Of a DNA stretch of 35,862 nt, positions 7,712 through 35,862 are shown one piece after another. Within the stretch, counting starts at the first letter, position 1. Each line of letters opens with the position of its first letter. Source of the DNA: a virus; IMG/VR virus record IMGVR_UViG_3300017764_000024, positions 1 to 35,862 of that record; one strand, given 5' to 3'. The notes below the pieces were generated by a model that was given only the letters and a program-made list of their open reading frames with translations, did not search any database and was not told the origin of the DNA. Made by a program: the position numbers and the translations under genes.

Positions 7712-7960
7712 ATGCCAAAGCAAAAACTATCCCCAAAAGCCTCCGCAGCCAAAAAACGGCGAGATCTAGCATACGCTAAGACAAAAAGACGCACAAAAAT
7801 GCGCGCAGAGAATCAAAGATTACGTAGAGCCGCAAAAAAAGCAGGTAAAAACGTTGAAAATAAAGATTATGACCACACTTCTGGTCGTTTTGTTAGTGTT
7901 TACACCAATAGAAGTGGTCACGGAGAAGGAACTAGAAAAAATAATACAAAAAACGCATAA
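7712..7960 (+). CDS. Small basic phage protein, 82 aa
   Basis: The first half is strongly basic (MPKQKLSPKASAAKKRRDLA, then KTKRRTKMRAENQRLRRAAK). It is followed by GKNVENKDYDHTSGRFVSVY, and the C-terminus is polar and Gly/Asn-rich. The MPKQKLSxKASAAKKxRDL start and the xDFDHxxGRFxSV motif recur in small proteins of marine phages. Its basic helical half suggests a nucleic-acid-binding or virion-internal protein, which is inference. An overlapping ATG at 7692 opens only 28 codons in another frame and was not used. Confidence 0.7.
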   Translation: MPKQKLSPKASAAKKRRDLAYAKTKRRTKMRAENQRLRRAAKKAGKNVENKDYDHTSGRFVSVYTNRSGHGEGTRKNNTKNA

Positions 7961-8893: not shown

Positions 8894-10456
8894 ATGGAAT
8901 TTAATAACCCAAGCGAAATCGTAAAAGACTTGTCTTTTGGCGATAAAGGAAGAGAGAAGATAATGCTAGGGGTTGATAAGCTTACAAAAGCAGTTGAATC
9001 AACCCTTGGCGCATCTGGAAAGTGCGTTATATATGAAGATGCATTAGGAAGACCGGTGATAACAAAAGATGGTGTAACCGTTGCGGAAAGCGTAGTCTTA
9101 AAAGATCCGGTCGAAAATATAGGTGCTACTTTAATTAAAGAAGCTGCTAAAAATACAGTAAAAGAAGCTGGAGATGGTACAACCACAGCTACAGTTCTAG
9201 CATCGTCCTTGCTTACTAAATGTAACGAAACATTAGATGTAAGCATAAGAGACCTAAAAGATGGTATAGACTCTTGTTTATATAAAGTAATGAAGCACCT
9301 AGATAAAAACGCCATACCAGTTGAAGGTGATATGCTTAAAAACGTAGCTACTATAAGTTGTAACAATGATAAAGATTTAGGTAGCAAAATAGGTAAAGCA
9401 TACAAAAAAGTCGGTAGAGATGGTGTTGTGCTTATGGAAGAGTCAGATACAAATGAAACATATGTAGAGTTTGTGGATGGTGTTCAGCTTGAGTGCAACT
9501 TAAAGTCACAGCATTTAGCTACAAACAAAGATCGCATGACATGTGAGCTTGATAATCCATATATTCTGCTAATGATGTCACCAATACCCAATGTTAGAAA
9601 AATACAGTCTATATTAGAGTTTGCAATAAAGAAAAACAGATCTTTGCTTATTATAGCTGAAATGGAGCAACAACCATATGCCACATTAATAGCTAACAAA
9701 GTAAAGGGTAATATAAAAGTTAATGTCGTCGATCCACCAGGATTTGGCCCTACTAAGATGGACACTATGGAAGACATAGCGTTCTTAACAGGTGCTAAAG
9801 TAATGAACGAAGAATTAGGTGATGATTTAGACCTTATTCAGCCAGATGTTTTAGGTGAAGCTGTAAAAGCTGTAACAGATGATAAAACGACCGTGCTTCA
9901 AGTTGGTGATCTAGGCGAAGCTTTAGCTGATAGAATAAAAACAGTTGAAGATAAAATAAAAGAAGAAACTAATCCGTTTTTCAAAAAAAGACTAGAACAA
10001 AGGCTAGCTATGCTTAACGGATCAGTAGCTATAGTAAAAGTAGGTGCTGATTCTAAAGTTGAGCTAAAAGAAAAACGCGATAGAGTTGAAGATGCGATTC
10101 ACGCAACTAAAGCCGCATACAAAGAAGGTATAGTTCCAGGTGGAGGTATAGCCCTTTTGAATGCCTCTAAAATAATCAAACCCGCTAACGCGGGTGAACA
10201 AGCTCTACTTGATGCTATTAAGTCTCCATACATAACTATACTTAATAACGCCGGTTTAGACGCATCTTTACAACTAAATAGAAAAGGTTGGGGTATTGAT
10301 GTTACAACTGGCAAACCTTTGAATATGGCTAGAGCTGGTATCATAGACCCGGTTTTGGTTACAAAATCGGCGCTCAAAAACGCAGTGAGTGTTGTTAAAA
10401 CTATTATTTCTGCAGATTGTATAATTAGTAATGTTAGAATAGATGAAAGCAATTAA
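8894..10456 (+). CDS. groEL: Chaperonin GroEL (phage-encoded Cpn60), 520 aa
   Basis: This is an ATP-driven protein-folding ring. Conserved blocks include ITKDGVTVAE (Asp59, equivalent to Asp52 of E. coli), AGDGTTTATVLA (residues 92-103, Asp94 equivalent to Asp87), RVEDAIHATKAA (Asp400 equivalent to Asp398), and VPGGGIALL. ATPase residues are therefore intact. It is about 28 residues shorter than E. coli GroEL and lacks the Gly-Gly-Met tail. The apical substrate segment that is normally RGYLSPYF reads CNLKSQHL, so usual contacts (Tyr199, Tyr203, Phe204) are replaced. It overlaps groES by 14 nt. It probably folds capsid or fibre proteins in the infected cell. Confidence 0.95.
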   Translation: MEFNNPSEIVKDLSFGDKGREKIMLGVDKLTKAVESTLGASGKCVIYEDALGRPVITKDGVTVAESVVLKDPVENIGATLIKEAAKNTVKEAGDGTTTATVLASSLLTKCNETLDVSIRDLKDGIDSCLYKVMKHLDKNAIPVEGDMLKNVATISCNNDKDLGSKIGKAYKKVGRDGVVLMEESDTNETYVEFVDGVQLECNLKSQHLATNKDRMTCELDNPYILLMMSPIPNVRKIQSILEFAIKKNRSLLIIAEMEQQPYATLIANKVKGNIKVNVVDPPGFGPTKMDTMEDIAFLTGAKVMNEELGDDLDLIQPDVLGEAVKAVTDDKTTVLQVGDLGEALADRIKTVEDKIKEETNPFFKKRLEQRLAMLNGSVAIVKVGADSKVELKEKRDRVEDAIHATKAAYKEGIVPGGGIALLNASKIIKPANAGEQALLDAIKSPYITILNNAGLDASLQLNRKGWGIDVTTGKPLNMARAGIIDPVLVTKSALKNAVSVVKTIISADCIISNVRIDESN

Positions 10457-10700
10457 TTATTATATAGTCTTAGAAAAGATAAAAGAGCAGCCAAAAAGCA
10501 TTGGCGGTATAGAGTTACTTGAAAAGTATGACAAAGACACTAGATATTCAAAAGCTAAGGTAATATCTGTTGGTGATAAAGTTGAAGCTGTAAAGCAAGA
10601 TGATATAGTGTGGTATGACAAACATAATGGTCATGGTATACAATTTGACAAAAAACTTTATCATGTTGTAAATTTAGGTGATATAGTAATTGTAGAATGA
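10443..10700 (+). CDS. groES: Co-chaperonin GroES, 85 aa
   Basis: The Cpn10 fold is recognisable: MKAINYYIVLEKIKEQPKSI, then GGIELLEK in the mobile loop (Ile23-Glu24-Leu25 corresponding to the Ile-Val-Leu GroEL anchor), AKVISVGDKVEAVKQDD, and VVNLGDIVIVE as the last strand. It caps the GroEL ring. It is 12 residues shorter than E. coli GroES, mainly in the roof region. The gene order groEL-groES with a 14-nt overlap is the reverse of the usual host groES-groEL operon. It also overlaps the next gene by 4 nt. Confidence 0.9.
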   Translation: MKAINYYIVLEKIKEQPKSIGGIELLEKYDKDTRYSKAKVISVGDKVEAVKQDDIVWYDKHNGHGIQFDKKLYHVVNLGDIVIVE

Positions 10701-11137
10701 TAACTTCTTCTACAGATTTAAGGGAATTGCAAATATTTAAGTATTACAGGCTCGTTCGCAAATGGGCCTGTAAAACTTATGATATAAAAGACGCAGACCT
10801 TGAATTACTTATATATCTTGACTGTAAAGATAGATTTACAAGAAAAGATTTTATGGACGGTACATATACTTACTCTTGGGATAAAGGTAGGTGGGAACGT
10901 CTAAGGCGTGAAGGTTGGATAGACGTTTGGCGCCAAAGAAATAGAACTTCAATTAAATATAGTATATATAAAACTTCGTACAAGTGCAGACAATTAATAT
11001 CAAGAATATATCGTATACTATTAAGTGAAGAGGATCTTCCTACAAGTAGTCGCGGTGTTTTCTATAAAAACAAAAATTATAGCGATAAAGTTTACAACAA
11101 AGCTATAGACGACATGATTAAAGATCCAGAACGATGA
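10697..11137 (+). CDS. Winged-helix-like DNA-binding protein candidate, 146 aa
   Basis: The helical first part (LRELQIFKYYRLVRKWACKT) leads into DLELLIYLDCKDRFTRKDFM, then a basic wing-like segment WERLRREGWIDVWRQRNRTS and a strand IKYSIYKTS. This order fits a MarR-type winged helix, in which a helix-turn-helix is followed by a beta wing. The C-terminal part (SRIYRILLSEEDLPTSSRGV) is helical. It may regulate transcription of the late arm or act in the virion. It is a marine phage family without characterised members that I know of. It overlaps groES and the next gene by 4 nt each. Confidence 0.55.
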   Translation: MITSSTDLRELQIFKYYRLVRKWACKTYDIKDADLELLIYLDCKDRFTRKDFMDGTYTYSWDKGRWERLRREGWIDVWRQRNRTSIKYSIYKTSYKCRQLISRIYRILLSEEDLPTSSRGVFYKNKNYSDKVYNKAIDDMIKDPER

Positions 11138-11469
11138 ATTACAAACCAATCACAATAAGAGCAAAGTGCAATTACTCAAAAGCACCAGCTAACCAAGAGG
11201 TGACTATAGATCCTCAAGGTAAAACGCCTGTCAATATGGCTAAAGTATCTCCACTTAAAAAACCTTTGGTTGGCAATCAAGACAGACTACCTCAACATTT
11301 ACAAGAAAACATTTTAGCTTCACCGGCGAAAGGATATAAATCTGATGCGCAGCGCAAAGCTGTACATGCTAGCAAAGCTGATGGAGGTAAAGGTGCTCCT
11401 AACAAAATGTACAAGTCACCTGCTAAAAAGAAGGGCTGCAAATCACCTGCTAAAAAACACTGTTATTAA
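11134..11469 (+). CDS. Basic SPxK-motif protein, 111 aa
   Basis: It is a Lys- and Pro-rich, probably disordered protein with four SP-x-K motifs (SPLK 39-42, SPAK 63-66, 95-98 and 104-107). The last two lie in a Lys/Cys-rich tail (KSPAKKKGCKSPAKKHC). SPxK repeats in eukaryotic H1 and sea-urchin histones bind the DNA minor groove, so this may be a virion-internal DNA-binding protein, which is inference. It starts with a 4-nt overlap and ends 1 nt into the next start. It is the first of five motif-bearing genes in a row. Confidence 0.6.
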   Translation: MNYKPITIRAKCNYSKAPANQEVTIDPQGKTPVNMAKVSPLKKPLVGNQDRLPQHLQENILASPAKGYKSDAQRKAVHASKADGGKGAPNKMYKSPAKKKGCKSPAKKHCY

Positions 11470-16168: not shown

Positions 16169-19100
16169 ATGGCAATACCATTTCTTAAAGGTATAGACGT
16201 AACTGGCACTGTTGATTTAAGTAACTTAACGATCGACGGTGCTCAGGGTACAGATGGGCAAGTATTAACCTCTACAGGATCAGGTATTGCTTGGGAAGAC
16301 GCTTCTGGAGGTGCTAGCCTTTCTGGTGGCGCAGCTAATAAACTAGCAATATGGAGCGGCACAAGTACTTTAACTAACGACACAAATCTTCACTGGGATA
16401 CTTCAAATGATAGGTTAGGTATAGGCACTTCAAGTCCGTCCGCTAAATTTCATATTAAAGAAACAACTAATTCTACCTCATCAGGATATCTTTTGCAACT
16501 ACAAAGCGTAAACGGAGGGGGTGACTATTTTAATACATCTGGTTTTCATAGGGATAGCAGTCAAAACATGCGACTACTCCTTAATAAATCCGCGATGAGC
16601 GGAGCGAACACGGTATTAATAAATTCTTCTGGTGATTCATATTTATCTGGTGGCGATGTTGGTATAGGTACGAGCAGCCCTTCTCAAAAACTTCACGTGA
16701 ATGGTAATGTAATAGCTGATAGATATTATGGTTATAATGCTACAAATTATTACATAGATCCAAATGATGGTACTACTTCAGCTATACTAAACGGAGATGT
16801 AAGTATTGGCAGTAGTTCGACTTATACAAAATTATCAGTTACAGCAGACACCGGAACTGGTGGAGATGGTATATTTATACGATCAGCTTTTGCTGGAGGT
16901 TCGCCTATGGTAAGTGATAAGGACCCGTTTTTATCCATTGGGTGTTCGGATGCTACTGGTTCTGTTTCTACTATTTTTATGGGAGAAGATTCTACCGCTA
17001 CAAGTCAAGAATCTAAAATAGAATATAGTCATGACAATTCAGCTTTAAGTATTCATGTTGCAGGACAGGGGGTTCATAGAGAACACGTTAGATTTGGTCA
17101 TGTGTCGAGTAGCGCAGCCAGAACTAGATTTTACGGCAACGTTGGTATTGGAACAAATCCATCTGCTCCTCTTCATGTGTCTGGATTAGCGAGAGCAACT
17201 GATGGTTTTTCGACTGACGGTAACAATAGGTTTTATACTTGGAGAGCGTTACAAAATACAAGCTCCAGTAGTAACCAATATTACAGAATAGCTAGAGTTA
17301 CTGGCAGCCAATCAACAAGATTTATAATTGAATTAGCAGGAAGAAGTACTTCTTATACTGACGGCGTATTGCCAGCTTTTGGTAAAATTGTTGGGCAATT
17401 AAATAATGATAATAATTTCGATATAGTTTATTATAATGCTAGCGCTACAGATGAAGTTGTTGATGAAGTAGGACAAGTAGATGTTAATACAGTCCAAACA
17501 GACATATATGTTAGAGTTGGGCAGTTTGCTGAATTAACTGCTATAGGCCATATTAGTGATGGTACAATGATTACTTACGATTCAAACAGTGGAAGTACAT
17601 CAGCGCCTACTAACTATGTTCAAGCTACTGAATATAAATTATGGAACACTGGAAACGATGGATCAGGCTCTGGGTTAGATGCTGACTTACTAGACGGGCA
17701 GCATGCTTCTGCTTTTGCGGCTTCATCTCACAATCACGCAGCAGGCGACATAACTTCCGGAACATTCAGCACAGCAAGAATACCTAATCTTGCTGCATCT
17801 AAAATAACATCAGGAACATTCAGCGCCGCTAGAATAGCCCATAACAGTTTTGATATAGGAGACACTACTGCCGAAACAGGTAGATCTGTTCATGAAACTG
17901 GTATTTATACTTTTAACAGAAACAATGGTAATTTAGGCACAGGAACAGCTTCTGCGTATTATTCTGTTCTAGCATTTGGTCAAGGAGCAGGTGGTTCTGT
18001 TCAAATTGCAGGTGATTGGACTGGTGGAGGTAATAAATTATATTGGAGAAGTTTAAGAGACACTACAGACAACTGGTGGGACTGGAAAGAAATATACCAC
18101 ACCAACCACAAGCCAACTTATTCGGAGCTTGGCGCTATGGCTTACAGCAATTTAACAGGCACACCATCTTCTCTTCCAGCTAATGGAGGAAATTCAGATA
18201 CTGTAGACAATTTACACGCAGCTTCTTTTCTTAGAAGCGACGCTGCCGACACTTTTACAGGTAAACTTTCCGTTGGGTCTACAAGTAGTAGAAGCGCGGG
18301 CGTGTATGGTGTATATGACTCTTACAAGACAGGTCATATATGGTCAATAGGAACTGGTTATGAAATTCCTAACGATGGATCTAATTTTGGAGACTTATAT
18401 GGTCTAGCCTACAAGCACACTAATAATACTACCGGCGGCACAATGGGCGGCGGCCACCAAATGGTTTGGTGTGATAACGGAAGCGCTAGAGGTTCAATGG
18501 GCTATAGTGCTGTTTGGCATGCGGAGTCAATGAAAGCCCCGATATTCTATGACTCAGATAACACAGCGTATTATACAAATCCTGCTAGTACAAGCGTGAT
18601 GAACATTGTTACTGCGGATCGTATAAACATGAAGGATAGAGGCGATTTCATTAGCTTTTATGGTAATGATAATGATGACCACAGTATAACTTCAAGAAAT
18701 GAAGCTGGTAGTCCTGATGATGATATTAGAATAAATTCATATCACAGTGTTTTCTTTGACTTAGATTCAAATAATAATAATGACAACGCCAGTACTGGTA
18801 TTTATGTTGGCCAACACGGAAGCGGAAGCGGTACAATTGGCAGTCAGTGGACTTTTAAAACCACAACAGACGGTATAACGATAGCAAGTGGTTCTTTTAG
18901 AACGCCGGTTTTTTATGATTCAAATAATACATCATTTTTTGCGCATCTAGATAGTACCGCAGACTCTATTAGAGCGGCTGGGGATATCATAGCTTACTAT
19001 TCTTCTGATAAAAGGTATAAAGAAAATATAAAGCCCATAGAGTCACCAATTGAAAAAGTAAAAGCAATCAGTGGTGTTACTTTTGAGTGGAACGAAAAAT

Positions 19101-19300
19101 CACATAAAGAAACAGGCAAGAAAGATGTAGGTGTGATTGCGCAAGAGGTAGAAGAAGTATTACCAGAAATTGTACAAACCAGAGATAATGGCTATAAAGC
19201 TGTAGATTATCAAAAGCTAACAGCTGTACTAATTGAAGCTGTAAAAGACCAGCAAAAACAGATTGATGAACTTAAATCTATAATCAATGGCAGTTCCTAG
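16169..19300 (+). CDS. Tail fibre with S74 intramolecular chaperone, 1043 aa
   Basis: The N-terminus (MAIPFLKGIDVTGTVDLSNL) matches the preceding fibre. The shaft has repeated units GIGTSSPSAKFHIK, GIGTSSPSQKLHV and GIGTNPSAPLHV, a SGLDADLLDGQHASAF block and three YDxxNTxYYxxP-like units. Residues about 945-1040 form an S74 endosialidase-type chaperone: SSDKRYKENI (Ser946 and Lys951 as the expected catalytic dyad), VGVIAQEVEEVLPEIV and a C-terminal coiled coil. S74 domains trimerise the fibre and then cleave themselves off. The end overlaps the next gene by 14 nt. Confidence 0.85.
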   Translation: MAIPFLKGIDVTGTVDLSNLTIDGAQGTDGQVLTSTGSGIAWEDASGGASLSGGAANKLAIWSGTSTLTNDTNLHWDTSNDRLGIGTSSPSAKFHIKETTNSTSSGYLLQLQSVNGGGDYFNTSGFHRDSSQNMRLLLNKSAMSGANTVLINSSGDSYLSGGDVGIGTSSPSQKLHVNGNVIADRYYGYNATNYYIDPNDGTTSAILNGDVSIGSSSTYTKLSVTADTGTGGDGIFIRSAFAGGSPMVSDKDPFLSIGCSDATGSVSTIFMGEDSTATSQESKIEYSHDNSALSIHVAGQGVHREHVRFGHVSSSAARTRFYGNVGIGTNPSAPLHVSGLARATDGFSTDGNNRFYTWRALQNTSSSSNQYYRIARVTGSQSTRFIIELAGRSTSYTDGVLPAFGKIVGQLNNDNNFDIVYYNASATDEVVDEVGQVDVNTVQTDIYVRVGQFAELTAIGHISDGTMITYDSNSGSTSAPTNYVQATEYKLWNTGNDGSGSGLDADLLDGQHASAFAASSHNHAAGDITSGTFSTARIPNLAASKITSGTFSAARIAHNSFDIGDTTAETGRSVHETGIYTFNRNNGNLGTGTASAYYSVLAFGQGAGGSVQIAGDWTGGGNKLYWRSLRDTTDNWWDWKEIYHTNHKPTYSELGAMAYSNLTGTPSSLPANGGNSDTVDNLHAASFLRSDAADTFTGKLSVGSTSSRSAGVYGVYDSYKTGHIWSIGTGYEIPNDGSNFGDLYGLAYKHTNNTTGGTMGGGHQMVWCDNGSARGSMGYSAVWHAESMKAPIFYDSDNTAYYTNPASTSVMNIVTADRINMKDRGDFISFYGNDNDDHSITSRNEAGSPDDDIRINSYHSVFFDLDSNNNNDNASTGIYVGQHGSGSGTIGSQWTFKTTTDGITIASGSFRTPVFYDSNNTSFFAHLDSTADSIRAAGDIIAYYSSDKRYKENIKPIESPIEKVKAISGVTFEWNEKSHKETGKKDVGVIAQEVEEVLPEIVQTRDNGYKAVDYQKLTAVLIEAVKDQQKQIDELKSIINGSS

Positions 19301-20171
19301 TTCTGGCCCTATTTCTTTATATGGTATTGCTAAAGAAATACACTTAGATAACTACAATAATACAATACCAAATCCAAACCAATCAGGTACTAACTGGGAC
19401 ACGTTTAACTATCCTCAACCAATTAGTTTAAAAAACATGAGCACAGGCGCAGGTGGATTTGACGCTATTAACTCCGCATCATCATCTAAGCCAAACGGGG
19501 CTACTCCTCATAGTATGTCTGAGTTTCACGGATATGATCATGATGCTAGCTCTTTGACACTGCTTCAGACAATAACCGGTCAGCAACACTCAACACAAAC
19601 AACCGCATCAACTCAATACTCAATAGGGGTTAGCGCTTTTAAAGGTAAAACGGTTAGAGCTGTATTTCATTACGTTTCAGGATCAAACTACACGGGTGAT
19701 GTTCAGTTAGATATGATATCTATGCCGTGGTATGGAAGTTTTTTTGGAAGCCCCACCCAATGGCAAACAATGTCTACTGGTTTTGGCGGCAGTACGTTTA
19801 GCGCTTTACAATTAAACCCAGATTTTACTTCAAATGGAAACTGGGAGACTAATACAAGTGACTCAAGTAGTTACGCAGCAACAACGTTTGGTAGTATTGG
19901 CACTAGCACTTCTGCTTACGGAAGATGGGTCGGGAGAAGCAACGGAACTCCTTCTGGAGGCACTGGTTTAACATCAAGCCCTTTTAATGGCATGCATGTA
20001 TATGCTGAAACTAGTTCGCAAGGTGGTGGTTATCCAAGTAAAAACTTTTGGCTAAGAAGTCCTGAGTGGGATCATATTGACAATGAAGTCGGTACTCCTT
20101 CTTTTACTTTTTATTATGGAGCATATGGTAATACTATTGGAACTATGAGAGTTTATTTTTTAGAAGTTTAG
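19287..20171 (+). CDS. Tail-associated structural protein (MAVPSSGxISLYGIA type), 294 aa
   Basis: The N-terminus MAVPSSGPISLYGIAKEIHL with SLKNMSTGAGG at 47-57 is of a type that recurs in phage virion proteins (MAVPSSGxLSLxxIxxE...ISLxDL). The rest is Gly/Ser/Thr-rich and beta-structured, ending FTFYYGAYGNTIGTMRVYFLEV. It probably forms part of the fibre or tail tip. It starts 14 nt before the end of the S74 fibre gene, a coupling often seen between a fibre and its partner. Confidence 0.65.
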   Translation: MAVPSSGPISLYGIAKEIHLDNYNNTIPNPNQSGTNWDTFNYPQPISLKNMSTGAGGFDAINSASSSKPNGATPHSMSEFHGYDHDASSLTLLQTITGQQHSTQTTASTQYSIGVSAFKGKTVRAVFHYVSGSNYTGDVQLDMISMPWYGSFFGSPTQWQTMSTGFGGSTFSALQLNPDFTSNGNWETNTSDSSSYAATTFGSIGTSTSAYGRWVGRSNGTPSGGTGLTSSPFNGMHVYAETSSQGGGYPSKNFWLRSPEWDHIDNEVGTPSFTFYYGAYGNTIGTMRVYFLEV

Positions 20172-20868: not shown

Positions 20869-21064
20869 TATAGGCAGAGACTATAAAAATGAAGCTATGC
20901 ACTATGCTGTTGGGCAAGAAGTTTACGGTGGGCACTCTATACATCAAATAGTTGAAGAAGAAAAAAAGTATTCTGTATACATAGAAAAAAATAACGAGGT
21001 TTTACCTTGGAAAGATTTTAATAAAAATATGGCAATAGCCGTAGAATATAATTTAGAATATTAA
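20846..21064 (+). CDS. Conserved small phage protein, 72 aa
   Basis: It begins MKLIRKISIGRDYKNEAMHY and continues AVGQEVYGGHSIHQI, then VLPWKDFNKNMAIAVEYNLE. The blocks KISxGxDYKNEAMHYxVGQxVxGGHxIHxI and LPWKxFNxxMAxxxEYN are typical of a widespread marine phage family, function unknown. The start is fixed by the family N-terminus, which requires the 23-nt overlap. The stop overlaps the next ATG by 1 nt. Confidence 0.7.
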   Translation: MKLIRKISIGRDYKNEAMHYAVGQEVYGGHSIHQIVEEEKKYSVYIEKNNEVLPWKDFNKNMAIAVEYNLEY

Positions 21065-21660
21065 TGCGTAGTCCTTTTAACTTTATAGTAAAGCCAAAAG
21101 AAAAAAGGAGCACGTCTACTAAAAAAATAAAAGATAAAGAGCTTATATTAAACACAGAGCTACAAAATCATTTATATGTAAGTAGACACGGTATTGTTTT
21201 AGAAACTCCTGTGTTAGAAAAAACTAACGTTAAAAAAGGAGATGAAGTAATAATACATCATAATGTTTTTAGAAGGTTTTATGATGTTAAGGGTAATGAG
21301 AAAAACAGTAAAAGTTTTTTTGATGAAGAAGTTTTTTTTGCTAGCCCTGATCAAATATTTTTATACAAAAGAAACAAAGACTGGAAACCTGTAAAAGGTT
21401 ATTGTTTTGTAAAACCTATAAAAAATGATGATATTTTTTCTGATAGCAAAGAAAAACCTTTAGTTGGTATAATGAAATACCCCGATGAAGAGTTAATTAA
21501 AAACGGAATAAAGTCTGGTTTTAAAGTAGGTTTTAAACCTAGATCAGAATATGAGTTTATTGTTAACGGTGAAAAACTTTATAGGGTTAAATCTAATTTA
21601 ATAACAATAAAATATGAACATAAAGGAAACGAAGTCGAGTATAATCCAAGCTGGCTATAG
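21064..21660 (+). CDS. Conserved phage protein, possible tandem GroES-like double barrel, 198 aa
   Basis: It begins MRSPFNFIVKPKEKRSTSTK, a recognisable start of a family adjacent to phage packaging genes. Two halves show a similar strand order: GIVLETP-GDEVIIHHNVF-EEVFFASPDQIFLYKR (about 44-106), and GYCFVKPI-VGIMKYP-GFKVGFK-GEKLYRVKSNLITIKYE (about 112-187). The final DQIFLYK and NLITIKY strands sit where GroES has its last strand (SDILAIVE). A Cpn10-like tandem is inferred by eye. It could cap the phage GroEL or be a head-assembly factor. The 47-nt overlap with the next gene is unusually long. Confidence 0.6.
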   Translation: MRSPFNFIVKPKEKRSTSTKKIKDKELILNTELQNHLYVSRHGIVLETPVLEKTNVKKGDEVIIHHNVFRRFYDVKGNEKNSKSFFDEEVFFASPDQIFLYKRNKDWKPVKGYCFVKPIKNDDIFSDSKEKPLVGIMKYPDEELIKNGIKSGFKVGFKPRSEYEFIVNGEKLYRVKSNLITIKYEHKGNEVEYNPSWL

Positions 21661-31746: not shown

Positions 31747-34700
31747 ATGCCTGAAATTAAAAATGTTTTTTCGGCAGGTAAAATGAATAAAGACCTGGAC
31801 GAAAGATTAATTCCCAATGGCCAGTATCGAGATGCTTTGAATATAAAGATATCTAGTTCTGAGGGTGCGGACGTAGGTGCAATTGAAAATATATTAGGTA
31901 ACACAGCTATTTTTAATAGATCTTATAATGAGGTTACTAACTCATACACTCAATGGGGTTTAAACGACTCTGACACAAACTACTATGGTTTTGATAACTG
32001 TAAAACAGTAGGTGTTATAAGATACGATAGAAATGAAAAAATATATTGGCTTCTAAGTGGTAGCAATCAAGATGGTATACTAGAGTTTGATCAAACAACT
32101 AAAGTTGTATCTCCTGTTGTTATAGATAAAAACAACGTTTTAAAATTTTCATCAAATACTCTTATTACAGGTATAAATATAATCGATGGCTTGTTGTTTT
32201 TTACTGATGACTTAAATGAGCCAAAATGTATCAACATAGAAAGATTCAAAACTGCAGCAGCAGCCTCAGGAGACACTTCTCACACTGAAATTTACGGTAG
32301 AGATTTTATAGAATCAGATGTAACCGTAATAAAAAAATCACCTATTACAGCCCCCACTTTGGAGATGTACAGAACAAAGCAGCTTGACGATAATGGCAAT
32401 GTTACTAATGTAGATACAGGTTGGTATGGAGCTTTAGGTAGCAATGTAGATGGTGAACCAACACCATTTGATCCAGGTACTGCTGTTACTATGTATTGGA
32501 ATCAACCTTATCCTTTTTATAATGTTGGTGATACTTTAGTTTTAACGGCTTCAAACGGTGAAGATGATGAAGATCATATAGCTAGAGTTAAAGTTTTTGA
32601 AGTACCAACAGGTAATACTCAAAACTTTGCTAAAGTAAACGTGTTGTCTATTAACACAGCACCAGCAACGAGTACATTTTGGGAGGTAACTTTAGAACAA
32701 ACTCCACCCATGTTTGAGTTTAAGTTTGCTAGGTTTGCGTATAGATATATATACAATGATAATCAAGTTTCTTGTTTTTCTCCTTTTTCTGAGCCAGCAT
32801 TTTTACCTGACGAAAAAGCTTTTGAATATAACCCAGAGCAAGGTTACAATGTGTTAATGAAAAACACGGTTAGAAATTTAAAAGTAAAAAACTTCGCGTC
32901 AAGTGGGACAGTTCCATCCGATGTAGAAAAAATAGATATATTATATAAAGATTCTTCAAACCAAAATGTTTATGTTGTAGATACAATTGAAAAAGACTCT
33001 TCTGGTAACTTTGCTAATCAGTATAGTATAAAATCTGAAATAATAAGCAAGGTTATAGAGTCTAATCAAATACTAAGACCGTTTGATAATGTACCAAGAA
33101 AAGCAAAATCTCAAGAAATAATTGCCAATAGGCTAGTTTATGCTAATTATTTACAGAACTTTGATATAAAAAATGCAAACGGTGACATTGTAAAACCTAA
33201 AGTATCTATAAACATTGACAATTACCCAACTTGGAATATTACTAATGAATCAGCTGGTAAATCAATAAAAACTTTAAGAACTTATCAAATTGGCGTTGCT
33301 TATAGAGATGAACATGGTAGAGAAACACCAGTGTTTTCATCAGAAACAAGTTCTACTGTATTAGGTAAAACATCAGCAAACTTAAATAATAGAATATCTG
33401 CGGTAATAGAATCAGATCCTCCAGAAGGTTTTACTCATTTTAAGTTTTTTGTTAAAGAAAATTCAAACGAGTACTATAATTTATCAATGGATAGATTTTA
33501 CGTTGAGTCAGATGATAATGTTTGGATATCTTTTCCATCTTCAGAAAGAAATAAAATAAAAGAAGATGACTTTATTATATTAAAAAAACAACACGATAGC
33601 AACAACTTTGTTGATGAAGAAGCTAGATACAAAATTATAGCTTTAGAAAATGAAGCTCCAGACACAATAAAAACAAAAAATGTAAACAAAGCTAAAATAC
33701 AAGGTTCGGGTAATAATAACACCTTTGTATCTGACGGTCAGCCAGTTGAAACTGCTTTAACTTTAAAAATACTAAATCAAGCTTGGGTTGACTCTGGCGC
33801 TGATTCTAGAGACAACGCTTTGTTAGGTGAACCACAGCTTTGTTGTAAAATATTTACAGAAACAAATACAACACCTGTTTTTTATGATATAGAAAGTATA
33901 CAAAAAGTTGGATCTGGTAACGATGCTCATTACAAGATTACTTTAAATAAACCACTATCTGGTATGGCTTTTGCTACAAGTAATGGTCAAGAAGCTGTAG
34001 GTTTAGGTATAAATATATTTCAAAAAGAAATACAAAATAAACCAGAGTTTGCTGGTAGATTTTTTGCAAAAATATATAGTGATAAAGCTTTAGTTGACAG
34101 AATAACATCGGTAAACGAAAAAGAAGGTTATGCTATAGCTTCTACTCGCACTCTTGGTAAAATGACTAGATTTGGAGATAATGATGATAACTGGAAATCT
34201 GGCGATAGAGGTTGGCATATAGATAATTCACAGCCTCGTTATCATACAGCTGTTCAAGGGGGATTGTTGCCACATAATAGTAATCTTCCTGGAGAAACGC
34301 TTAACGTTGGTGCGAAACGAGGTAGAGGGACTAGAGTGGGCTCAAAATACATAGATATATGTTATTTTAAATGGGGACCTGGTAGTGGTAGCGCGGCAAG
34401 AAACGCATGGGACGGTTATTGGTGGGGCTTTGAAAATAAAGTTCCAGACGCAGCTGATACAGCTAATTTTTTACAGTCACCTGGACAAAAGATAAGATGG
34501 ACTGATGATCCAGATGGCACTATATATGAAATAGTCGATTATGCTAGAGTTCATTGTGTTACTTATAAAGGCAGCAAAAAAGGAAAGTTCGCTTCATCGA
34601 GATTAATAAGATTTACAATTCAACTAGATAAACCTCTAACTTGGTCACCAGATGACTCTTTACAGTTAACAGAAGTAGGTGGAAGTACTACTACTAATTT

Positions 34701-35862
34701 AGAGTTTTTAAGAATAGTAGATGAAGACTCTGGAACGTACACATCAAAAAACCCTGCTATTTTTGAAACTGAGCCCGATGAAAATGTTGACATTGATATA
34801 TACTATGAAGCTAGTGATAATATACCAATCGCTCAACACGGAACTGAAGCGTTGCCATCTACTCACGATTTAGATTGGTTCAACTGCTATTCGTTTAACA
34901 ATGGTGTAGAGTCTGACAGAATAAGAGATGATTTTAACGCTGTAAGAATAGGTAAAGGTGTAAAAGTATCTGCAACACTAGATGAGCCATACCAAGAAGA
35001 AAGAAGAGGATCAGGTTTAATATTTTCTCAAATATTCAACTCTTTAACAGGCACAAACAAACTTAATCAGTTTATACAAGCTCAACCTATAACTAAAGAC
35101 TTAAATCCAGCAAATGGATCAATACAAAAACTTCACGCTAGAGACACAGATTTAGTTGTAATGTGTGAAGATAAAGTTTTAAAGATTTTAGCTCAGAAAG
35201 ATGCCTTATTTAACGCAGACGGATCTGCTAACGTTACATCTAACGCGGCTGTTTTAGGTCAAGCGATACCTTTTGTTGGTGAATATGGTATATCTAAAAA
35301 CCCAGAGTCGTATGCTTATTATGGTTTTAGATCTTACTTCACAGATAAAAATAGAGGTGTTGTTTTAAGGCTATCAAGAGATGGTTTAGAAGAAATATCT
35401 TCAAACGGCATGAGCGATTATTTTTCAGATAAACTTGCTTCAGAAAACACAATGATTGGCAACTACGACGAAGACTCTGGATGCTACAATGTTAGTTTTT
35501 CTGATGAAACAGTTTCTTTTGAAGAAACAGTTAGAGGTTGGCCAACTAGAAAATCTTTTGTAGCTGAAGCTGGTGTATCTTTAAATAACATATATTACAC
35601 ATTTAAAGATGGTGTCATATGGTCACATGACAATCAAACAAGAAATAACTTTTATGGTACTCAATATAAATCAACAGTAAAGCTAGTGTTTAACGAGTCA
35701 CCATCAAAAATTAAAAACTTTAAAACAATATTTTACAAAGGAGACTCTGGTTGGACTTGTCCAAAAATATCTACAGATCAACAAGACGGTAGCGTTCCAG
35801 GCTTTTCTAATAAAGAAGGTATATATTATAACTTTATAAAAGGCATTGAAAACACATGGGAT
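31747..35862 (+). CDS. Large tail hub / stabilization-type protein, partial at the right end (1372 codons visible)
   Basis: ATG at 31747 opens a frame that is in phase to the window end and has no stop there, so it is truncated by the edge. It begins MPEIKNVFSAGKMNKDLDER, then LIPNGQYRDALNI, and has a LLFFTDDLNEPKCINIERF block. Later segments are LRPFDNVPRKAKSQEIIANR, a LVYANYLQNFD segment, YQIGVAYRDEHGRETPVFSS and GVVLRLSRDGLEEISSNGMS. These are the conserved blocks of the large tail-tube or stabilization-type proteins of podovirus-like and crAss-like phages. It probably builds the tail hub. In many annotations it is simply called phage stabilization protein. Confidence 0.75.
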   Translation, partial: MPEIKNVFSAGKMNKDLDERLIPNGQYRDALNIKISSSEGADVGAIENILGNTAIFNRSYNEVTNSYTQWGLNDSDTNYYGFDNCKTVGVIRYDRNEKIYWLLSGSNQDGILEFDQTTKVVSPVVIDKNNVLKFSSNTLITGINIIDGLLFFTDDLNEPKCINIERFKTAAAASGDTSHTEIYGRDFIESDVTVIKKSPITAPTLEMYRTKQLDDNGNVTNVDTGWYGALGSNVDGEPTPFDPGTAVTMYWNQPYPFYNVGDTLVLTASNGEDDEDHIARVKVFEVPTGNTQNFAKVNVLSINTAPATSTFWEVTLEQTPPMFEFKFARFAYRYIYNDNQVSCFSPFSEPAFLPDEKAFEYNPEQGYNVLMKNTVRNLKVKNFASSGTVPSDVEKIDILYKDSSNQNVYVVDTIEKDSSGNFANQYSIKSEIISKVIESNQILRPFDNVPRKAKSQEIIANRLVYANYLQNFDIKNANGDIVKPKVSINIDNYPTWNITNESAGKSIKTLRTYQIGVAYRDEHGRETPVFSSETSSTVLGKTSANLNNRISAVIESDPPEGFTHFKFFVKENSNEYYNLSMDRFYVESDDNVWISFPSSERNKIKEDDFIILKKQHDSNNFVDEEARYKIIALENEAPDTIKTKNVNKAKIQGSGNNNTFVSDGQPVETALTLKILNQAWVDSGADSRDNALLGEPQLCCKIFTETNTTPVFYDIESIQKVGSGNDAHYKITLNKPLSGMAFATSNGQEAVGLGINIFQKEIQNKPEFAGRFFAKIYSDKALVDRITSVNEKEGYAIASTRTLGKMTRFGDNDDNWKSGDRGWHIDNSQPRYHTAVQGGLLPHNSNLPGETLNVGAKRGRGTRVGSKYIDICYFKWGPGSGSAARNAWDGYWWGFENKVPDAADTANFLQSPGQKIRWTDDPDGTIYEIVDYARVHCVTYKGSKKGKFASSRLIRFTIQLDKPLTWSPDDSLQLTEVGGSTTTNLEFLRIVDEDSGTYTSKNPAIFETEPDENVDIDIYYEASDNIPIAQHGTEALPSTHDLDWFNCYSFNNGVESDRIRDDFNAVRIGKGVKVSATLDEPYQEERRGSGLIFSQIFNSLTGTNKLNQFIQAQPITKDLNPANGSIQKLHARDTDLVVMCEDKVLKILAQKDALFNADGSANVTSNAAVLGQAIPFVGEYGISKNPESYAYYGFRSYFTDKNRGVVLRLSRDGLEEISSNGMSDYFSDKLASENTMIGNYDEDSGCYNVSFSDETVSFEETVRGWPTRKSFVAEAGVSLNNIYYTFKDGVIWSHDNQTRNNFYGTQYKSTVKLVFNESPSKIKNFKTIFYKGDSGWTCPKISTDQQDGSVPGFSNKEGIYYNFIKGIENTWD

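Follow-up and report, generated by a model that had tools for sequence, protein, structure and literature searches.

A viral GroEL and its neighbouring GroES differ from bacterial proteins at a shared contact site and are accompanied by a candidate two-domain lid

The co-chaperonin gp31 of bacteriophage T4 serves capsid folding. The chaperonin of Pseudomonas phage EL neither binds E. coli GroES nor refolds rhodanese (PMC7185714), and mass spectrometry has found the GroEL of phage phi38:1 both within infected cells and in a virion sample (PMC13288928). According to the accessible part of the literature on environmental viruses, a GroEL gene is carried by 36 genomes from environmental samples that belong to the phi38:1 group (Nishimura et al. 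2017, PMC5332604) and, in viral metagenomes, the order of the two genes is associated with the phylogeny of GroEL (Marine et al. 2017, PMID 28731469, cited in PMC9611531). Outside viruses, the Cpn10 and Cpn20 proteins of chloroplasts have been documented to assemble into mixed seven-domain lids (PMC5780408, PMC4242682), and the tandem type is described in a review as specific to chloroplasts (PMC5780408). A phage encoding the barrel as well as the lid poses the question of why a virus carries a barrel and not a lid alone.

The window, by which we mean the whole stretch of DNA analysed (virus record IMGVR_UViG_3300017764_000024, 35,862 bases), carries such a pair. As the initial annotation had described, a groEL gene (8894-10456, plus strand) precedes a groES gene (10443-10700, plus strand), and the ORF coordinates give an overlap of 14 nt (10443-10456, plus strand). 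The source is a tailed phage, probably with a host in the Bacteroidota, because the nearest named relatives of the window terminase belong to phages of Flavobacteriia, together with one uncultured podovirus. From position 7712 to past 31743 the main genes all run in one direction, none of the gaps exceeding 80 nt, and this block places groEL-groES in the same orientation as genes for an S74 fibre, the terminase, the portal and a virion structural protein. Late expression together with the virion genes would be expected from this single co-directional block; a promoter scan of the window gave 18 hits versus 15.0 in shuffled sequences (sd 3.8), without a clear excess. Overlaps are frequent in this genome, and the genes at 16169-19300 and 19287-20171 also share 14 nt. 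The former encodes the S74 fibre-like protein, whose C-terminal S74 intramolecular chaperone domain represents a second folding aid in this phage, unrelated to GroEL/GroES. Elsewhere in the window, we noted a single tRNA-Arg (TCT) at 2509-2583 on the minus strand amid small minus-strand genes, a small basic protein with KSPAKK-like repeats at its end, encoded a short distance after the chaperonin genes (11134-11469), and, past the virion genes, a frame open for at least 1372 codons (31747-35862) that continues beyond the right end of the record.

Complete pairs had been regarded as uncommon in phages, and their order here as reversed. The first view is out of date, as a scan of viral contigs returned 137 candidate stretches encoding a relative in one viral collection. 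We kept 80 of them (66-74% identical), and in every one GroEL came before GroES, with an overlap of 1, 4, 14 or 17 nt in 79 and a 254-nt gap in the remaining one. GroES came first in all 76 bacterial loci whose flanks contained it. Among named phages, elemo, ctfjg026 and Panino are GroEL-first, and immuto, Calle, phi38:1 and Bacteroides phage SJC03 are GroES-first. The order is thus typical of a lineage and already in the literature, and neither order nor overlap counts as a novelty. In the crAss-like Cellulophaga phage phi14:2 (L086), GroEL is present and Cpn10 was not detected in the whole genome.

That the upstream gene encodes a group I, GroEL-type chaperonin (520 aa) is near certain. The product matches PF00118 (E 1.1e-56, 193 bits, positions 1-488 of 490 covered) and phrog_5725 (E 4.8e-136), and its structural model (pLDDT 76.5) matches GroEL/Hsp60 structures along its length with E-values down to 1.7e-45. 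The protein has the DGTTT motif and, in agreement with the initial annotation, retains the ATPase aspartates D52, D87, D398 and D495 (E. coli numbering). A C-terminal GGM tail is absent from all 79 GroELs of the viral clade and present in 75 of 79 bacterial GroELs, which are the best matches listed from a genome scan and serve as the bacterial reference for GroEL; since four of these also lack the tail, it is common rather than universal or strictly defining. The best listed bacterial match to the window GroEL is about 41-42% identical. In the tree, the viral sequences form one fully supported branch, whose stem measures 1.58 changes per column, although the placement of this clade among other long-branched phage GroELs is unsure. 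In the same tree, a GroEL contig labelled Candidatus Rokubacteria (L175) groups with Aequorivita (Flavobacteriaceae), so that assembly is probably contaminated. The viral clade is under purifying selection: among close pairs, the median dN/dS was 0.07 over the full gene and 0.05 within the apical domain, rough figures given a fair degree of divergence at synonymous sites (median pS 0.54). The idea of a gene recently taken from a host and now drifting as a non-functional copy has nothing beyond GroEL homology in its favour, and the single long-stemmed branch, the distance from the best listed bacterial match and a dN/dS of about 0.05-0.07 already contradict it; we give this explanation practically no weight.

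The initial annotation had also singled out the apical segment CNLKSQHL as an altered substrate-contact site. This segment (residues 201-208; 9494-9517, plus strand) aligns to E. coli RGYLSPYF (197-204) with no surrounding gap, which discards the possibility that it is merely shifted. We compared the apical domain of the 79 viral clade GroELs with that of the 79 listed bacterial ones. The consensus is SGLKSPHL in the viral clade and RGYLSPYF in bacteria; the alteration is therefore genuine, while the C, N and Q of the window are partly private to its genome. Position 199 is Y in every listed bacterial sequence and L or I in the viral clade, where Y203 is replaced by H in 77/79 sequences and F204 by L in 76/79. 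In helix H (9593-9631, plus strand; model helix 234-246), Q238 takes the place of L234 and L241 keeps L237; position 234 is Q in 79/79 viral sequences versus L, I, V or M in 79/79 listed bacterial ones. In helix I (9668-9709, plus strand; alignment and model), Y262 stands for L259, I266 for V263 and A267 for V264, and N268 keeps N265. Across the clade, L259 has become Y or F in 69/79 sequences, V263 mostly L or I and V264 mostly A or S (A/S/T), with L237, E238 and N265 kept (N265 in 79/79). The full residue set occurs in none of the 79 listed bacterial GroELs, one of which has H203 alone. Hence the apical change is real and clade-wide. Because positions 199, 204 and 263 stay hydrophobic, the groove is, as read from the alignment, remodelled and not abolished: 203 and 234 are polar, 259 aromatic and 264 small.

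The downstream gene encodes a small Cpn10-type GroES of 85 aa that matches PF00166 (33.7 bits, cut-off 21.1) and phrog_3188 (E 7.4e-12), and the viral GroES set gave a 96% profile match to bacterial GroES. Its roof segment is short, 9-10 residues in the viruses versus 13-19 in 72 of 76 bacterial GroES. The mobile loop is present, and its tripeptide aligns as IEL (10509-10517, plus strand) to IVL of E. coli, the outer I and L being kept and the middle V replaced by E. Residue 26 of the loop is E in the window and in 80/80 viral relatives but in 0/76 bacterial GroES, which have I, V, Y, L or F (76/76). In the GroEL-GroES crystal, loop residues I25, V26 and L27 contact L234, L237 and V264 of the barrel, and replacing N265 by A blocks GroES binding (PMC3514286). 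The altered groove residues thus also bind the GroES loop and, as the loop has changed too, the apical change need not concern clients. With L234 and V264 forming the docking site of the loop, a private barrel-lid interface, which we rate as moderately likely, would account for the apical change no less well than client choice. Groove and loop changes are both fixed within a single clade, so the 79/79 and 80/80 counts come from one lineage, each may reflect one event, and their meeting at one site is a coincidence of position rather than a statistical coupling. Other phages would fit a groove-loop pairing loosely: loop position 26 is Y or I in elemo, immuto and SJC03, which have L234, and the residue 234/loop 26 combinations of those without L234 are E/E in Panino, E/L in ctfjg026 and A/T in Calle. 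The pairing of E with E234 in Panino means that the loop E is no proof of a match to Q234, and its use as a marker of Q234 pairing is weakened by the two-domain lid of phi13:2, a phage without GroEL, which reads SGLEL.

The same changes could be seen as the traces of a holdase similar to the EL chaperonin, preventing aggregation without encapsulation while the GroES gene acts elsewhere. Replaced hydrophobic groove residues, the lost GGM tail and the failure of the EL protein to bind E. coli GroES or refold rhodanese (PMC7185714) speak for it; yet GroES is adjacent in 80/80 loci, its loop has changed along with the groove, identity to listed bacterial GroEL is about 41% and N265 is kept, which makes a holdase quite improbable.

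A further GroES-like gene lies upstream of the terminase genes (21064-21660, plus strand) and encodes 198 aa. The product matches phrog_13932 'co-chaperonin GroES' (E 1.7e-19) and gave no match to Pfam Cpn10. Its model has two domains (pLDDT 81.7), and the best structural match, chloroplast Cpn20 (7ekq_R), spans both (Z 9.8, rmsd 3.8 Å, 160 residues). Next come single GroES chains, which align over domain 2 with Z up to 9.0, and dehydrogenases rank lower still (Z of 6 or less). In profile comparisons, domain 2 matched bacterial GroES at 97.5%; domain 1 matched the viral small GroES at 83%, with KELIL aligned to the mobile loop, and bacterial GroES at only 8%. By these criteria the predicted GroES-like assignment is firm for domain 2 and moderate for domain 1, and the modelled protein is probably a further lid or a lid component. 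The records of elemo, Calle and phi13:2 label their homologues cpn10 and make no remark on the tandem domains.

The two-domain lid gene was found in all 38 GroEL-bearing contigs searched. In the converse direction, of 23 contigs carrying the two-domain lid gene 12 had no GroEL, but in all 12 less than 7.4 kb of sequence precedes that gene, which makes them uninformative. The perfect linkage to GroEL that tblastn made apparent does not stand, as four Pachyviridae, phi13:2, phi18:3, phi19:3 and phi46:3 (L256 2028-2630; L262-L265), encode two GroES types and no GroEL, namely a two-domain lid that has diverged and a small Cpn10 whose SGIII loop is host-like. Hence a barrel has been gained or lost among phages that have both lid types in common. 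The Pachyviridae also speak for lids that act on host GroEL like T4 gp31, leaving the viral GroEL as an accessory or in mixed rings: these relatives have both lid types without a barrel and their small lid keeps the host-like GIII loop. In the GroEL-bearing relatives of the window, however, the small-lid loop is no longer host-like, and we regard lids acting on the host barrel in this way as very improbable.

Taken together, we lean towards a self-contained viral chaperonin with its own barrel and cognate lid, expressed with the virion genes, which we consider somewhat likelier than all other readings combined. The kept ATPase aspartates, the side-by-side genes in 80/80 loci, the low dN/dS, the changes on both sides of the contact, the co-directional block, the two-domain lid in 38/38 contigs, N265 in 79/79 sequences and the mass-spectrometric detection of GroEL in phi38:1, a relative, count for it; the EL chaperonin working without a lid (PMC7185714), the missing GGM tail and the position of the phi38:1 pair by the DNA polymerase count against it. 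In such a machine, GroEL and GroES would be translated from overlapping genes and the pair probably transcribed together with the virion genes. Rings would most likely assemble and enclose substrates in an ATP-driven manner as in GroEL-GroES, encapsulation being likely by this analogy. Because groove and loop have changed at their shared contact, the viral lid would probably fit the viral barrel better than the host barrel. Naming virion proteins as clients is a guess guided by gene position and the T4 precedent; they would most likely be folded late in infection. The initial annotation had proposed a dedicated machine for a narrow set of virion proteins. A role in virion assembly is plausible given the co-directional block of virion genes, while the narrow range and the named client found no backing. 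The pair might instead be a general folding aid, serving the proteomes of host and virus while infection proceeds rather than virion proteins in particular. Gene neighbourhoods elsewhere suit this explanation, since the pair adjoins DNA polymerase and nucleases in phi38:1 and Calle (in phi38:1 it adjoins the polymerase and not virion genes) and follows DNA polymerase A in immuto; in the window clade, by contrast, it is co-directional with the virion block and the groove differs from that of every listed bacterial GroEL compared, so we think a general role unlikely. Equally doubtful is a bolder version of the self-contained machine, an orthogonal three-part chaperonin with a private groove and a mixed single and tandem lid as in chloroplasts, tuned to virion proteins.

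Viral pairs in GroEL-first order were already known; what is new is the matched change at the contact, together with the double lid. Virioplankton GroEL-GroES genes, as described in the accessible portions of that literature (Nishimura et al. 2017; PMC9611531), likewise include divergent viral GroELs on marine contigs with an order tied to phylogeny, and those portions contain no description of a two-domain lid. Among the closest known systems, phage elemo and podovirus ctfjg026 (MW202828) resemble the window in having GroEL first (overlaps of 1 and 44 nt, respectively), a two-domain lid before the terminase and a terminase 46% and 62% identical to that of the window, but their GroEL is only about 35% identical and elemo, a Flavobacterium phage, keeps L234 and has Y at loop position 26. 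The EL chaperonin shares with the window a phage GroEL homologue with an altered apical groove, but needs no co-chaperonin (PMC7185714), whereas the window clade keeps a neighbouring lid. T4 gp31 and RB49 CocO are, like the window GroES, phage co-chaperonins (PMC9598537); they use host GroEL, while the window phage supplies the barrel too. A clade with a changed groove and loop beside barrel-less relatives with the same lids offers natural contrasts for telling lid residues from client residues. Finally, as with Cpn20 and Cpn10 of chloroplasts, a tandem GroES-like protein occurs beside a single-domain one, although the phage tandem protein differs from Cpn20 in that domain 1 is weakly GroES-like and domain 2 has no obvious mobile loop. 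A tandem lid outside plastids, if true, would separate that design from plastid biology.
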